Assembly: GCF_900120155.1 (NCBI RefSeq)
Contig: NZ_LT635549.1
Span: forward strand, 1,954,688-2,018,687
Reading direction: 5' to 3'
DNA: 64,000 nt
Source: Clostridium sp. Marseille-P3244
GTDB taxonomy: Bacteria; Bacillota; Clostridia; Lachnospirales; Lachnospiraceae
Shown: in pieces, positions 37,118 to 42,656 of the stretch
Layout of the letters: every line of letters starts with the position of its first letter
Numbering within the stretch: the first letter of the stretch is position 1
Position numbers and translations under genes: made by a program
The notes under the pieces: model-generated
The model's input: the letters and a program-made list of their open reading frames with translations, nothing else
What the model was told of the DNA's origin: nothing
The model's database searches: none

Positions 37118-38446
37118 ATGAGCAAACCGGCAGTTGCCATTGTAGGACGTCCCAACGTGGGAAAGTCAACATTGTTCAATGCACTGGCAGGAGAAAAGAT
37201 ATCTATAGTAAAAGACACCCCGGGGGTGACCAGGGACCGGATCTATGCAGACGTGACATGGCTGGACAAAGAGTTTACGATGATCGACACCGGCGGCATC
37301 GAGCCGGACAGTAAGGATGTGATCCTTTCCCAGATGAGAGAACAGGCGCAGATCGCGATTGAGACGGCGGATGTGATCCTGTTTATGACCGATGTAAGAC
37401 AGGGGCTGGTGGACGCTGATTCTAAAGTGGCGGACATGCTCCGGCGTTCCGGAAAACCGGTCGTCCTGGTAGTGAATAAAGTAGACAACTTTGACAAATA
37501 TATGGCGGATGTGTACGAATTCTACAATCTTGGGATCGGAGATCCCATCCCCATATCGGCCGCATCCAGGCTCGGACTGGGAGACATGCTGGAAGTCATC
37601 GCAGAGCATTTTCCACAGGCGGACGCCGGGGAGGAAGAGGATGACCGGCCTCGGATCGCCATTGTAGGAAAGCCCAATGTCGGAAAATCTTCTATTATCA
37701 ACCGTCTTCTGGGAGAAAACCGGGTGATCGTCTCTGATGTGGCAGGGACAACAAGGGATGCCATTGATACAGAGATCGTCCATAACGGAAAGGAATATAT
37801 CTTCATTGACACAGCCGGGCTTCGGAGAAAGAGCAGGATCAAGGAAGAGCTGGAACGGTACAGCATTATACGGACTGTGACCGCGGTTGAGCGTTCGGAC
37901 GTGGTGCTGATGGTCATCGATGCCACAGAGGGCGTGACAGAGCAGGACGCCAAGATCGCCGGCATTGCCCACGAGAGGGGAAAAGGCGTGATCATCGTGG
38001 TGAATAAGTGGGATGCCATTGAAAAGAACGACAGGACCATGCGGGAGTATGAGGGCAACATCCGGCAGGTACTGTCCTATATGCCCTATGCGGAGATCAT
38101 GTATGTGTCCGCCCGGACAGGGCAGAGACTGAATAAACTGTACGATATGATCGATATGGTGATCGAGAACCAGACCCTGCGCGTGGCCACCGGTGTTTTG
38201 AACGAGATCATGACGGAGGCCGTCGCGCTTCAGCAGCCGCCGTCGGACAAAGGAAAACGTTTGAAACTGTACTACATCACTCAGGTTTCCGTAAAGCCTC
38301 CTACTTTTGTCATTTTTGTAAATGACAAAGAGCTGATGCATTTCTCCTACACAAGATATCTTGAGAATAAGATCAGAGAGGCATTCGGGTTTCGGGGGAC
38401 ATCATTGAAGTTTTTTATAAGGGAGAGAAAGGAAAAGGAGCAGTAA
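37118..38446 (+). CDS. der: ribosome biogenesis GTPase Der (EngA)
   Basis: Double-GTPase needed for maturation of the 50S subunit. The first G domain has GRPNVGKSTLFNAL, TPGVTRDRIY, DTGGIE and NKVD; the second (from about residue 178) has GKPNVGKSSIINRLL, DVAGTTRDAID, DTAGLRRKSR and NKWD. The C-terminal KH-like domain closes the protein (FSYTRYLENKIREAFGFRGTSLKFFIR). The length of 442 is standard. plsY starts 4 bp after the stop. Confidence 0.98.
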   Translation: MSKPAVAIVGRPNVGKSTLFNALAGEKISIVKDTPGVTRDRIYADVTWLDKEFTMIDTGGIEPDSKDVILSQMREQAQIAIETADVILFMTDVRQGLVDADSKVADMLRRSGKPVVLVVNKVDNFDKYMADVYEFYNLGIGDPIPISAASRLGLGDMLEVIAEHFPQADAGEEEDDRPRIAIVGKPNVGKSSIINRLLGENRVIVSDVAGTTRDAIDTEIVHNGKEYIFIDTAGLRRKSRIKEELERYSIIRTVTAVERSDVVLMVIDATEGVTEQDAKIAGIAHERGKGVIIVVNKWDAIEKNDRTMREYEGNIRQVLSYMPYAEIMYVSARTGQRLNKLYDMIDMVIENQTLRVATGVLNEIMTEAVALQQPPSDKGKRLKLYYITQVSVKPPTFVIFVNDKELMHFSYTRYLENKIREAFGFRGTSLKFFIRERKEKEQ

Positions 38447-38450
38447 AGGT

Positions 38451-39104
38451 ATGGAACGGTTGATCTGTCTTGCGGTCGGGTATGTGTGCGGGCTTCTGCA
38501 GACGGGGTATCTGGTCGGGAAAATGAGCCATGTGGATATCAGAAAGAAGGGAAGCGGCAACGCGGGCACTACAAACGCGCTGCGGGTCCTGGGCTGGAAG
38601 GCCGGCATCATGACATTTGCGGGGGATGTGCTGAAATGTGTGGCGGCGTTCCTGATCACGTATTTCATGTACCGCGGGAGCGATTATTTTCCGCTTCTTG
38701 CTATGTATGCAGGGGCGGGGGTCACCCTGGGGCACAATTTTCCGTTCTATATGAGTTTCAAAGGAGGAAAGGGGATCGCAGTGATGGCGGGCCTGGTAGT
38801 TCTCAACAGTTTCTGGCATCTTCCCGGGAGCCTGCTGATGATCCTGGTCACACTGGCATTTTTCCTGGTTCCGGTGGTGATCACAAGATACATATCTGTC
38901 GGTTCCCTGTCGGCCTATACAGTATTTCTGATCGAAATGATCCTGATGGGACAGATGGGCTGGCTGGATATGGAGGCGCCCAGGTGTTATGAGCTCTATG
39001 TGGTGCTTTTCCTGCTGACGGCTCTTGCGTGGTACCGTCACCGGGCAAATATCGGGCGGCTGATCAGTGGAACGGAAAACAAATTCGGGTCTAAGAAACA
39101 GTAA
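38451..39104 (+). CDS. plsY: acyl-phosphate glycerol-3-phosphate acyltransferase PlsY
   Basis: Membrane enzyme that acylates glycerol 3-phosphate using the acyl-phosphate made by PlsX. The 217-residue protein has about five hydrophobic segments and the three family motifs: KKGSGNAGTTNALRVLG, GHNFPFYMSFKGGKGIA, and the C-terminal RHRANIGRLISGTENKFG. It lies between der and gpsA, which makes its substrate glycerol 3-phosphate. Confidence 0.95.
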   Translation: MERLICLAVGYVCGLLQTGYLVGKMSHVDIRKKGSGNAGTTNALRVLGWKAGIMTFAGDVLKCVAAFLITYFMYRGSDYFPLLAMYAGAGVTLGHNFPFYMSFKGGKGIAVMAGLVVLNSFWHLPGSLLMILVTLAFFLVPVVITRYISVGSLSAYTVFLIEMILMGQMGWLDMEAPRCYELYVVLFLLTALAWYRHRANIGRLISGTENKFGSKKQ

Positions 39105-39118
39105 AGGAGTAGCAGATT

Positions 39119-40132
39119 ATGGCAAATGTAGGTGTGTTTGGCGCCGGAAGCTGGGGCACGGCGCTCTCTGTCCTTCTCCATGATAACGGGCATCACGTGG
39201 AAGTCTGGTCCATTGACGGAGAAGAAGTGAAGATGCTCAATGAAAAGAAAGAACATGTGCTGAAACTGCCGGGAGTGAAGCTGCCGGACGACATGAAGGC
39301 CACAACGGATATGGAGTCCGTGATCGCGGGGAAGGATTTCCTGGTACTGGCAGTACCGTCTACGTTTACCCGGGAGACGGCACGGAAGATGAATCCATAT
39401 GTGAAAGAGGGACAGATCATCGTAGATGTGGCAAAAGGGATCGAAGAGGCCACCCTTATGACCCTCTCACAGCAGATCGAACAGGAAATCCCGCAGGCGG
39501 ATGTGGCAGTCCTTTCAGGGCCCAGCCATGCGGAGGAAGTGGGGCGCAGGCTGCCTACAACCTGCGTGATCGGGGCCAGAACAAAGAAGACGGCGGAATA
39601 TCTGCAGTCGATGTTTATCAGCAGGGTGTTCCGCGTGTACACCAGTCCGGATATCCTGGGGATGGAACTGGGCGGCTCTCTGAAAAATGTTATTGCCCTT
39701 GCGGCAGGTATCGCTGACGGTCTGGGGTATGGGGATAATACAAAGGCTGCCCTTATCACAAGGGGGATCGCGGAGATCGCCCGCCTGGGTGTTAAGATGG
39801 GCGGAAAGATCGAGAGCTTTACGGGACTGACAGGGATCGGAGATCTGATCGTTACCTGTGCCAGTGTCCACAGCCGGAACCGCAAGGCAGGATATCTGAT
39901 CGGACAGGGCCGGACCATGCAGGAGGCCATGGATGAGGTGAAAATGGTGGTAGAAGGCGTCTATTCCGCAAAAGCGGCGGCGCGGCTGGCGCGGAAGTAT
40001 GATGTTTCCATGCCTATTGTGGACGAGGTCAACGCAGTGCTGTTCGACGGGAAATCTCCGGCAGAGGCTGTGGATGATCTGATGCAGAGAGAATCCCGGA
40101 GCGAGAGCCTGGCTCTGAAATGGGAGAACTGA
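39119..40132 (+). CDS. gpsA: NAD(P)-dependent glycerol-3-phosphate dehydrogenase GpsA
   Basis: Reduces dihydroxyacetone phosphate to sn-glycerol 3-phosphate for lipid synthesis. The 337-residue protein has the N-terminal Rossmann motif VFGAGSWGTALSVLLHDNGH, LSGPSHAEEV, the signature GGSLKNVIALAAGIADGLGYGDNTKAALITRG, and TGLTGIGDLIVTC. A terminator-like hairpin starts 13 bp after its stop. Confidence 0.97.
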   Translation: MANVGVFGAGSWGTALSVLLHDNGHHVEVWSIDGEEVKMLNEKKEHVLKLPGVKLPDDMKATTDMESVIAGKDFLVLAVPSTFTRETARKMNPYVKEGQIIVDVAKGIEEATLMTLSQQIEQEIPQADVAVLSGPSHAEEVGRRLPTTCVIGARTKKTAEYLQSMFISRVFRVYTSPDILGMELGGSLKNVIALAAGIADGLGYGDNTKAALITRGIAEIARLGVKMGGKIESFTGLTGIGDLIVTCASVHSRNRKAGYLIGQGRTMQEAMDEVKMVVEGVYSAKAAARLARKYDVSMPIVDEVNAVLFDGKSPAEAVDDLMQRESRSESLALKWEN

Positions 40133-40143
40133 AAAAAAGAGTG

Positions 40144-40172
40144 TCATACCCCCTTTGGTATCTGCATACACT
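40144..40172 (+). promoter_or_regulatory. candidate sigma-E promoter of spoIVA
   Basis: TCATACC (40144-40150), 14 bp, CATACACT (40165-40172) resembles the mother-cell sigma-E consensus (KMATATT, 14-15 bp, CATACAHT). Its predicted start, near 40179, lies between the two arms of the hairpin. spoIVA is a sigma-E gene in Bacillus subtilis. Confidence 0.5.
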
Positions 40173-40199
40173 GTATCAGCAGAACAAGGGGGTATTTTT
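40146..40199 (+). terminator. gpsA terminator whose 3' arm contains the spoIVA ribosome site
   Basis: Arms ATACCCCCTT (40146-40155) and AAGGGGGTAT (40186-40195) pair perfectly and are followed by TTTT; a minor inner stem TCTGC/GCAGA also forms. The 3' arm is the only Shine-Dalgarno sequence for spoIVA. Confidence 0.75.
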
Positions 40200-41672
40200 A
40201 TGGATTCATTTCAGGTATACAGAGATATGAAAGCACGAACGAACGGGGAGATCTATATCGGGGTAGTCGGTCCGGTGCGGACAGGCAAGTCAACATTTAT
40301 CAAGCGCTTTATGGATCTCCTGGTCCTGCCCAACATGACAGATGAACATGCAAGAGAACGGACACAGGATGAGCTTCCCCAGTCTGCGTCGGGGACGACG
40401 ATCATGACAACAGAGCCGAAATTTGTGCCGAAGGAGGCGGCCTTAGTTCACCTTTCTGATGATGTGGAAGTAAAGATCCGGCTGATCGACTGTGTGGGCT
40501 ATATGGTGGAGGGCGCTTCCGGGCATACGGAGAATGACGCAGAACGGCAGGTGAAGACCCCCTGGTTTGAGTATGAGATCCCGTTTACCAGAGCGGCGGC
40601 CATCGGTACCCAGAAAGTGATCCATGACCATGCCACCATCGGGTTTGTCGTGACAACAGACGGAAGCGTGACAGATCTGCCCCGGGAAAACTATGTGGCG
40701 GCTGAGGAAAAGACAGTGAAAGAGCTGCAGTCCATCGGAAAACCGTTCCTGATCCTGCTGAACTGCCAGAAGCCGTATACAGAGGAGGCAAAAAAGATGA
40801 AGGAGGAGCTGGAACAGAAATACAAAGCCTCGGTTATTCTCGTAAACTGTGAGCAGATGAAGACCGAGGATATCCATGAGATCATGCGGCAGATCCTCTA
40901 CGAATTTCCCATTACAGAAGTGGAATTCTATGTACCCAAATGGGTGGAGATGCTCTCCCGGGATCACCGGATCAAACAGGACCTTCTGGACAATGTCCGG
41001 TCAGTGATGGAGGATCTGGACGACGTAAGGAGCATCGTGTCCCGTGATATCGGCACAGAAAGCCCGTACATAGACAGTATTTCCGTAGACCGGATCGACA
41101 TGGACTCGGGACGGGTGGCCATACGGATCGGATTTGAGCAGAAATACTACTATGAAGTACTCAGCGAGCTGACCGGGGCTGATATCAGAGGAGAATATGA
41201 GCTGATATCAACCATGAAGGAACTTGCGTCCATGCGGGAAGAATTCAGCAGGATCCGGGACGCATTTACAGATGTGAAGATGAAAGGATACGGCGTGGTG
41301 ACACCGTCCAAGGAGGATATCCGGCTGGAGGAACCGGTGATCATCAAGCAGGGCAGCAAGTACGGGGTGAAGATCCGCTCCGAGGCTCCTTCCATCCACA
41401 TGATCCGGGCCAACATAGAGACAGAGATCGCGCCCATTGTGGGCAGTGAAAAGCAGGCGGAGGACCTGGCGGAATATATTAAGAAGGAGAGCAGCACTTC
41501 GGAGGGTGTCTGGGGAACCAACATTTTCGGGAAGACGGTGGAAGAGCTGGTTATGGACGGTATGAGGAATAAGATTTCCATGATCAACGACGAAAGCCAG
41601 GTAAAACTTCAGGATTCCATGCAGAAGATCGTAAACGACTCAAACGGCGGTCTCGTCTGCATTATCATCTGA
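40200..41672 (+). CDS. spoIVA: stage IV sporulation protein A, SpoIVA
   Basis: ATP-hydrolysing protein that polymerises on the forespore to form the base of the spore coat. The 490-residue length matches the family. Start ATG 40200 is fixed by AAGGGGG at 40186-40192. The N-terminal NTPase domain has Walker A GVVGPVRTGKSTFIKRFMDLLVLP and later TDGSVTDLPRENY and LLNCQKPY; the C-terminal region ends GGLVCIII, close to the conserved hydrophobic tail that contacts SpoVM-bearing membrane. Its presence shows the host is a spore former or recently descends from one. Confidence 0.96.
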   Translation: MDSFQVYRDMKARTNGEIYIGVVGPVRTGKSTFIKRFMDLLVLPNMTDEHARERTQDELPQSASGTTIMTTEPKFVPKEAALVHLSDDVEVKIRLIDCVGYMVEGASGHTENDAERQVKTPWFEYEIPFTRAAAIGTQKVIHDHATIGFVVTTDGSVTDLPRENYVAAEEKTVKELQSIGKPFLILLNCQKPYTEEAKKMKEELEQKYKASVILVNCEQMKTEDIHEIMRQILYEFPITEVEFYVPKWVEMLSRDHRIKQDLLDNVRSVMEDLDDVRSIVSRDIGTESPYIDSISVDRIDMDSGRVAIRIGFEQKYYYEVLSELTGADIRGEYELISTMKELASMREEFSRIRDAFTDVKMKGYGVVTPSKEDIRLEEPVIIKQGSKYGVKIRSEAPSIHMIRANIETEIAPIVGSEKQAEDLAEYIKKESSTSEGVWGTNIFGKTVEELVMDGMRNKISMINDESQVKLQDSMQKIVNDSNGGLVCIII

Positions 41673-41705
41673 ACCGGTCTGGACGTAACAGAGAAAACAG
41701 AGACG

Positions 41706-41738
41706 CGGCGGGATCTGATCCCGCCGTACTTTTTTTAT
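41706..41738 (+). terminator. terminator of spoIVA
   Basis: Stem CGGCGGGATC (41706-41715)/GATCCCGCCG (41717-41726) followed by TACTTTTTTTATTTT. Confidence 0.85.
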
Positions 41739-41744
41739 TTTCCC

Positions 41745-41773
41745 TCGACTTATAAAGGAGGGGATAGTATAAT
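41745..41773 (+). promoter_or_regulatory. sigma-A promoter of the punA operon
   Basis: TCGACT (41745-41750), 17 bp, perfect TATAAT (41768-41773), 41 bp before the punA ATG. Confidence 0.5.
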
Positions 41774-41813
41774 AAAACAGAATATTGAATTGTAAGAAAG
41801 AAGGGAAAAGCAG

Positions 41814-42656
41814 ATGAGCAGACCGTATGAAAAACTGGAGAAATGTTATGAATACTACAGATCTGTGACGGATTTTGCCCCGGTGACAGGGCTGATCCTT
41901 GGATCCGGTCTGGGAGGATACGCCCGCAACATGCGGGTCATCAAAGAGATCCCGTACAGCGATATTCCAGGATTCCCTGTATCCACAGTCCAGGGACATG
42001 AAGGGAAATTCCTGCTGGGATATATTGGAGACGTTCCGGCGGTTGTCATGAAGGGCCGGGTACATTATTATGAAGGTTATCCGATGGAGGAGGTAGTTCT
42101 TCCTGTCCGTCTGATGAAACGGATGGGGATCCGGACTCTCTTTGTGACAAATGCTTCCGGCGGCATGAACCGTCAGTTTCAGGTGGGAGATTTTATGCTG
42201 ATCACGGATCAGATCTCGAGTTTCGTGCCATCGCCTTTGATCGGGGAAAATGTATCGGAGCTGGGAGAGCGTTTCCCGGACATGACACATATCTATGATC
42301 CGGAACTGGCGGATGTAATCCGGAAGACGGCGGAGCAGGAAAAAATCCCGCTGAAGGAAGGGGTATACCTGCAGACTTCGGGTCCCAATTTCGAAAGTCC
42401 GGCTGAGATCCGGATGTACGCGGCTCTGGGGGCGGACGCTGTGGGGATGAGCACAGCCTGCGAGGCGATCGCGGCCCGCCATGCGGGGGTACGCGTATGC
42501 GGGATCTCCTGTATCTCCAATATGGCCAGCGGGATGTCCGACCAGGAACTGAGTCACCTGGATGTGCAGAATGTAGCGGACAGGCGGGCAGGAGAATTCG
42601 AGCGGCTGGTCACAAAGAGCATCCAGAAAATAGGACTATGGGAGAAAAGACAATGA
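41814..42656 (+). CDS. punA: purine-nucleoside phosphorylase (trimeric PNP)
   Basis: Splits purine nucleosides with phosphate. The 280-residue protein is of the trimeric family: phosphate/ribose motifs GLILGSGLGGY, KGRVHYYEGYP and TNASGGMNRQF, base-binding Glu in SGPNFESPAEIRM, VGMSTACEAIAARHAG, and the Asn in ISNMASG, typical of enzymes acting on guanosine and inosine. It is first in an operon with an amidohydrolase that overlaps its stop codon, consistent with purine salvage. Confidence 0.93.
   Translation: MSRPYEKLEKCYEYYRSVTDFAPVTGLILGSGLGGYARNMRVIKEIPYSDIPGFPVSTVQGHEGKFLLGYIGDVPAVVMKGRVHYYEGYPMEEVVLPVRLMKRMGIRTLFVTNASGGMNRQFQVGDFMLITDQISSFVPSPLIGENVSELGERFPDMTHIYDPELADVIRKTAEQEKIPLKEGVYLQTSGPNFESPAEIRMYAALGADAVGMSTACEAIAARHAGVRVCGISCISNMASGMSDQELSHLDVQNVADRRAGEFERLVTKSIQKIGLWEKRQ

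Follow-up and report, generated by a model that had tools for sequence, protein, structure and literature searches.

The gap between gpsA and spoIVA in a genome of the genus Mediterraneibacter (Lachnospiraceae) probably holds a read-through insulator, i.e., an intrinsic terminator for upstream transcription, whose 3' arm is the Shine-Dalgarno sequence (SD) of spoIVA and whose 5' arm lies in the spacer of a sigma-E-type promoter. Its anatomy, the covariation of its arms, its dependence on the orientation of the neighbouring gene, and the coupling of a U-tract to the hairpin come from sequence comparison; the start site, the termination and masking as such, and the advantage that growing cells would have from being free of SpoIVA are what we infer. 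It is proposed that in growing cells RNA reading through from gpsA would carry both arms and fold. Much of this RNA would end in the U-tract that immediately precedes the ATG; RNA passing the U-tract would have its SD buried in the hairpin. In the sporulating mother cell, sigma-E polymerase would start between the arms and produce RNA lacking the 5' arm, which would form no hairpin, would not be terminated, and would leave the SD open.

The window, i.e., the whole analysed stretch of 64,000 nucleotides, carries the gene order der, plsY, gpsA, spoIVA, and purine-nucleoside phosphorylase; the features of the gpsA-spoIVA region are collected in Table 1, with NCBIfam and Pfam used for gene naming only. 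The arms ATACCCCCTT and AAGGGGGTAT form 10 Watson-Crick pairs, and the only SD of spoIVA, as read from the sequence, is held in the 3' arm. Inside the 10 pairs lies the GC-rich stem CCCCCTT/AAGGGGG, followed by TATTTTT. As in intrinsic (Rho-independent) terminators generally, a GC-rich stem is thus followed by a U-tract after a coding gene; unlike in these, the 3' arm is the SD of the next gene and the stem-loop contains the promoter of that gene. The U-tract is short (5 T) and the outer arms are 30 nt apart, therefore termination may be modest. The sigma-E consensus has a -35 element near KMATATT, a spacing of 14-15 nt, and the -10 element CATACANT. The promoter of the window (TCATACC, a 14-nt spacer, and CATACACT) agrees with it, the -35 element matching only in part, and is of the sigma-E type as judged by motif.

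Table 1. Features of the gpsA-spoIVA region, in window coordinates.
Feature	Position	Strand	Basis
gpsA (glycerol-3-phosphate dehydrogenase; co-directional housekeeping gene upstream)	39119..40132	+	ORF; NCBIfam NF000941 430.9 bits, cut-off 423
-35-like element TCATACC of the sigma-E-type promoter	40144..40150	+	sequence; aligned block common to genera
5' arm ATACCCCCTT, overlapping the -35 end and the promoter spacer	40146..40155	+	pairs with 40186-40195 in the predicted fold; arms covary among genera
-10-like element CATACACT, between the outer arms	40165..40172	+	sequence; CATA-type -10 with and without hairpin; profile score 18.4
Predicted sporulation transcription start	40178..40181	+	inferred from promoter position, ~7 nt past the -10
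3' arm AAGGGGGTAT, contains the spoIVA SD (40186-40192)	40186..40195	+	sequence; predicted fold; modelled SD accessibility
U-tract TTTTT, between SD and ATG	40195..40199	+	T-rich spacer coupled to hairpin among genera
spoIVA (stage IV sporulation protein A), ATG at 40200	40200..41672	+	TIGR02836 639.6 bits, cut-off 459.9

An earlier note on this DNA had placed the promoter, the arms, and the sole SD as in Table 1, which direct reading of the sequence bears out base for base, and had claimed that read-through RNA would fold while a sporulation transcript without the 5' arm would leave the SD free. Folding models agree with the latter. Read-through RNA (40134-40215) is predicted to form the hairpin, with an inner extension, at -23.5 kcal/mol (z -2.6; 4 of 200 shuffles fold as well or better), whereas RNA from the predicted start (40179) does not form it (-3.1 kcal/mol, z +0.6). 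By the model, the SD is unpaired with a probability of 0.05 when the RNA comes from read-through and of 0.78 when it starts at the sigma-E promoter. The comparison of accessibility was made for 118 of the 155 loci of the cross-genus set described below, 113 of them with known orientation; among the 92 co-directional hairpin loci, the median probability is 0.13 for read-through and 0.57 for the predicted sigma-E RNA, with a gain above 0.3 in only 67 of the 92. Of 183 loci examined, 148 combine pairing at -12 with a CATA motif, and in 147 of these the start predicted from the motif falls downstream of the 5' arm. Simple terminator scans and a sigma-70 scan did not detect the element; the terminator scans consider only loops of 3-8 nt and so pass over it. 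An Rfam search of positions 38000-42000 gave no match at the hairpin, and its single hit below threshold lies elsewhere, at 38106-38243. Programs that search for terminators under short-loop rules can overlook sites of this kind and thereby treat gpsA and spoIVA as a single transcript.

For comparison among relatives, 249 loci were reduced to 183 distinct spoIVA upstreams. The cross-genus set comprises 155 genera with one genome each, i.e., 95 of the 103 matching genomes (own included) and 60 new genera from among the matches listed, where at least 256 of 396 genomes matched. A locus was taken to have the hairpin where the duplex between the SD region and the upstream segment reaches -14 kcal/mol or lower. 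Conservation in related genomes, named in the earlier note as a check, was found: all 54 distinct upstream sequences of the genus pair at this threshold, each with four or more T in the SD-ATG spacer, and so do 106 of the 129 genus representatives whose upstream gene is co-directional. Outside Lachnospiraceae, the threshold is reached by 4 of 34 distinct upstream sequences.

A hairpin of this kind is expected only where transcription can arrive from upstream, and the dependence on the orientation of the upstream gene is therefore a prediction that holds. Orientation was taken from a codon model, and 25 loci were re-judged by eye from their ORFs with the duplex energies in view, which gave 129 co-directional and 18 divergent loci and 8 without a clear upstream gene among the 155 genera. 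None of the 18 divergent loci has the hairpin, against the 106 of 129 co-directional ones (Fisher 3.7e-12). Pairing at -12 is found in 112/129 co-directional and 3/18 divergent loci, and pairing at -10 in 120/129 and 6/18, respectively; by the pairing-probability measure, 5 of the 18 divergent loci reach 0.6. Nine loci changed class by eye and the changes favour the reading proposed here; for this reason, the raw model calls are given beside the corrected ones, namely 106/130 co-directional against 1/15 divergent loci at -14 (Fisher 1.1e-8) and 112/130 against 4/15 at -12. Three loci (L073, L296, and L332) were moved from co-directional to divergent and one (L192) from unknown to divergent, all without hairpin. 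L293, divergent by the model and with a hairpin (-20.8), was set to unknown, its nearest gene being 844 nt away, as was L244, called co-directional and also with a hairpin; L087, L211, and L230 were moved from unknown to co-directional.

Divergent neighbours lie 96-269 nt away. Among distance-matched co-directional loci (96-270 nt), the hairpin is found in 31/49 against 0/18 (Fisher 9.9e-7), so distance alone does not explain the effect of orientation. The genera are related and the p-values are thus not fully independent; counting each homology group of upstream genes once, a partial remedy, gives 66/84 co-directional and 0/15 divergent. In loci with at least 1000 nt of upstream sequence, the counts are 62/74 and 0/13. 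The largest group of co-directional neighbours is gpsA (26), followed by ABC ATPase (8), and the others include, by Pfam, [FeFe] hydrogenase, BioY, FolD, lactonase, and isocitrate/isopropylmalate dehydrogenase. The divergent neighbours (Pfam) include LysR, cation efflux, shikimate dehydrogenase, dehydroquinase, alanine dehydrogenase, and ABC ATPase. One exception is L138, outside the 155-genus set, which has an XdhC-like gene divergent upstream and yet a strong hairpin; in L134 and L136, also outside the set and with similar hairpins, the upstream gene probably points away as well, the XdhC-like identity having been checked in L138 only.

Between SD and ATG, T makes up on average a fraction of 0.72 of the spacer in the 106 hairpin loci and of 0.48 in 22 co-directional loci without hairpin; for 14 divergent loci the value is 0.32, and for 235 control genes 0.24. 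The spacer was undefined in 4 of the 18 divergent and 1 of the 23 co-directional no-hairpin loci. A U-tract enriched together with the hairpin has no obvious use for masking, and termination therefore looks selected; it is the better-evidenced half of the proposed reading. This makes it very improbable that masking of the SD is the sole function and the T-rich spacer incidental, although the modelled difference in SD exposure between the two RNAs is what masking would give. A separate upstream terminator is present in 10 of the 23 co-directional loci lacking the hairpin and in 9 of the 106 having it. The excess is partly due to lack of room; where at least 90 nt are available, the counts are 10/19 and 7/38 (Fisher 0.013). 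The substitute was found in only 10 of the 23 loci, out of 129, that lack the hairpin at -14.

The same data can be read to mean that the element is the terminator of the upstream operon only, the overlap with the SD saving space in a short intergenic region and masking having no physiological role. We regard this as unlikely, but as an explanation to be taken seriously. It accounts for the strong coupling of the U-tract to the hairpin, for separate terminators being commoner where the hairpin is missing, and for the hairpin becoming rarer with intergenic distance: pairing at -12 is found in 22/22 loci less than 60 nt behind a co-directional gene, 36/37 at 60-80 nt, 26/30 at 80-110 nt, 19/25 at 110-150 nt, and 9/15 at 150 nt or more. 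However, these last 9 loci still pair with the SD despite having 150 nt or more of room, and 13 of the 106 hairpin loci keep SD pairing without a usable U-tract. These 13 loci hint at a role of masking in its own right without proving it: 1 of them has another terminator, and the rest could be decaying. In addition, the SD of sigG in the genus pairs, more weakly, with an arm lying over the sigG promoter, and there is no U-tract. Because the 3' arm is the SD, masking comes with the hairpin and may be a built-in consequence of termination. The reading of the earlier note, a terminator that may also mask the SD, is supported by the relatives in most respects: both halves fit the anatomy, the terminator gains from the U-tract coupling and from the separate terminators where the hairpin is missing, and masking follows from the geometry.

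Across genera, the complementarity is kept while the arm sequences change and the promoter persists. The stems differ among upstreams (e.g., CCCCCTT/AAGGGGG, CCTCCTGCATATA/TATATGCAGGAGG, ATACCCCATTCCC/GGGAATGGGGTAT, and CCCCTTCCTTTTCTGGC/GCCAGAAAAGGAAGGGG), and in the 106 hairpin loci the own 5' arm pairs better than 95% of the arms of other genera in 60 cases and better than 80% in 89, with a median gain over them of 7.1 kcal/mol. Stem oppositions were counted in a Watson-Crick-only alignment because the pairing program favours G.U; G.T exceeds A.C (58 against 26, p 6e-4), as expected for RNA pairing on this strand. An inverted repeat flanking the -10 element might be a DNA operator for a spoIVA regulator, with no RNA structure involved. 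This was set aside as hardly credible, since complementarity rather than arm sequence is kept, G.T exceeds A.C, half of the repeat is the SD, and divergent loci keep the promoter but not the pairing. Just as little can be said for the view that the arms pair through common descent, or by chance between a G-rich SD and a C-rich spacer: within the genus the arms do resemble one another closely and 32 of the 235 control genes reach -14 kcal/mol by the identical measure, but the median duplex of the 183 upstreams is -21.3 kcal/mol (z below -3 in 72%) against -13.0 with 5' segments swapped between loci and -8.8 with shuffled ones, and across genera there are compensatory change and orientation dependence.

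The promoter itself is common to all locus classes. The -10 element could be aligned in 83 of the 106 hairpin loci, 15 of the 18 divergent, and 11 of the 23 co-directional no-hairpin loci, and all three classes share a CATA-type -10 that is followed by TAACAG and preceded, ~14 nt upstream, by an ATAA or TCTAA block. In these aligned loci, pyrimidines make up a fraction of 0.70, 0.48, and 0.64 of the promoter spacer, respectively. A profile trained on 113 spoIVA promoters of other genera, with the spacer excluded, was applied to 864 kb (29%) of the own genome, where 655 of 758 genes have an SD. After the own spoIVA promoter, the five next hits are spoIIIAA, a spoIIM-like gene (31.1 bits on a 150-aa piece, under the curated cut-off), a ribosome hibernation factor, spoIIP, and yqfC (73.5 bits against a cut-off of 77.8). 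In B. subtilis, spoIIIA, spoIIM, and spoIIP are sigma-E genes. Six genes score at least 14, against one in the reverse-complement control; weaker scores are barely above the control (8 against 5 at 13, 19 against 11 at 12). The gene of the ribosome hibernation factor (C3:1782043, minus strand) is a good match to the spoIVA-type promoter, with a score of 15.4.

The scan of 864 kb revealed no second sigma-E-type gene built in this way. Three genes combine pairing at -14 or lower with a CATA motif at -48 to -26, and spoIVA alone among these has a run of at least four T. The threshold is reached by 8 of the 203 co-directional genes with a gap of 40-200 nt in the scanned part. Within the same part, four other genes with matching promoters do not pair at -14 (-4.0 to -13.1), so sigma-E-type genes in general are not insulated in this way; two of them, the spoIIM-like gene (C3:1881226, plus strand) and yqfC (C3:2235301, minus strand), lie 56-60 nt behind co-directional genes and have duplexes of only -4.6 and -4.0. 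Six genes pair at -20 or lower; besides spoIVA, these are three transposase genes, which have T-rich spacers, and two genes whose spacers are not T-rich. The transposase genes (C3:1591713, minus; 2409500, plus; 2412494, minus; L340 and L378) have SD hairpins of -24 to -30 kcal/mol. Two near-identical HTH_Tnp_1 transposases and one of the Mutator family are concerned, two checked by Pfam and the third nearly identical to one of these.

Transposases are the classic users of read-through protection, in which, as in IS10, IS50, and IS200, the transposase SD is caught in a hairpin only when the RNA enters from outside. There, a mobile element is shielded from many neighbours, whereas spoIVA is a chromosomal developmental gene. 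The principle proposed here, of a start inside the hairpin, is already known from phage T4 gene e and from B. subtilis sigG. In the lysozyme gene e of T4, as well as in soc, 49, and I-TevI, the early transcripts are longer and fold so that a hairpin encloses the translation start, and late promoters just upstream of the ribosome site give RNA without the 5' part that is well translated (PMC3014915). Similarly, the long upstream RNA of spoIVA can pair the 5' arm with the SD. However, gene e is a phage gene and, as far as the excerpt of PMC3014915 goes, its block is translational and no terminator is described, while at spoIVA the hairpin comes with a U-tract and a sporulation sigma factor would act as the switch. 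For sigG (spoIIIG) of B. subtilis, a sporulation gene like spoIVA, a large hairpin that cannot form in RNA from PsigG was proposed to block translation of spoIIG read-through RNA (PMC5942855). The upstream operon is there itself a sporulation operon, the promoter is active in the forespore, and the hairpin is not described as a terminator in the excerpt of that source (PMC5942855); at spoIVA, different genera have different neighbours, and the presence of the hairpin goes with the direction in which these point. Searches of the open-licence literature gave no title or opening of an abstract that points to the arrangement at spoIVA, which is weak evidence of absence, and the word spoIVA is absent from PMC7438776. 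What is new is the fusion with a U-tract terminator and the use of a sporulation-promoter spacer as the 5' arm, as well as the wide occurrence of the element within the family and its link to the orientation of the neighbouring gene.

In this arrangement, three parts usually drawn in a row, i.e., a terminator, the promoter of the next gene, and its ribosome site, are merged into ~60 bases. The relatives provide a natural experiment, as the promoter is constant and the hairpin is present or absent depending on whether the neighbour can read in. A wider interpretation, which we put forward tentatively, is a developmental firewall kept across the family: the spoIVA promoter of Lachnospiraceae would be held inside a combined terminator and SD mask, and upon rearrangement this lock would be rebuilt behind a new co-directional gene or discarded next to a divergent one. 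If so, vegetative leak of a coat scaffold would be costly enough to be counter-selected across most of the family, and spoIVA would differ from the four other genes of the same genome with sigma-E-like promoters. Leaky SpoIVA would then presumably be harmful to growing cells, which the arrangement makes testable. Searches for further insulated developmental genes can also build on the rule that the 5' arm lies in the promoter spacer.

Several minor observations accompany these results. The start region 40173-40185 (TATCAGCAGAAC) shows strong conservation within the genus even though its position is past the -10 element and before the SD, and the hairpin alone does not explain this. One locus, L143, diverges from its relatives just upstream of the SD, with no reason found. 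In the own genome, an ABC-F type ATPase-like gene, so named by eye (C3:2037753, plus strand), located 102 nt past a co-directional gene, has a T-rich spacer and leader-SD pairing of -17.4 kcal/mol. In sigG of the genus (L386-L396, with L391 being C3:1798419 of the own genome), AGAATCATTCTAA pairs with the SD region TTAGGAGGATTCT in a duplex of -9 to -17 kcal/mol. This arm overlaps, by eye, a sigma-F/G-like -10 element, is weaker than that of spoIVA, lacks a U-tract, and is perhaps the counterpart of the read-through hairpin of B. subtilis sigG.
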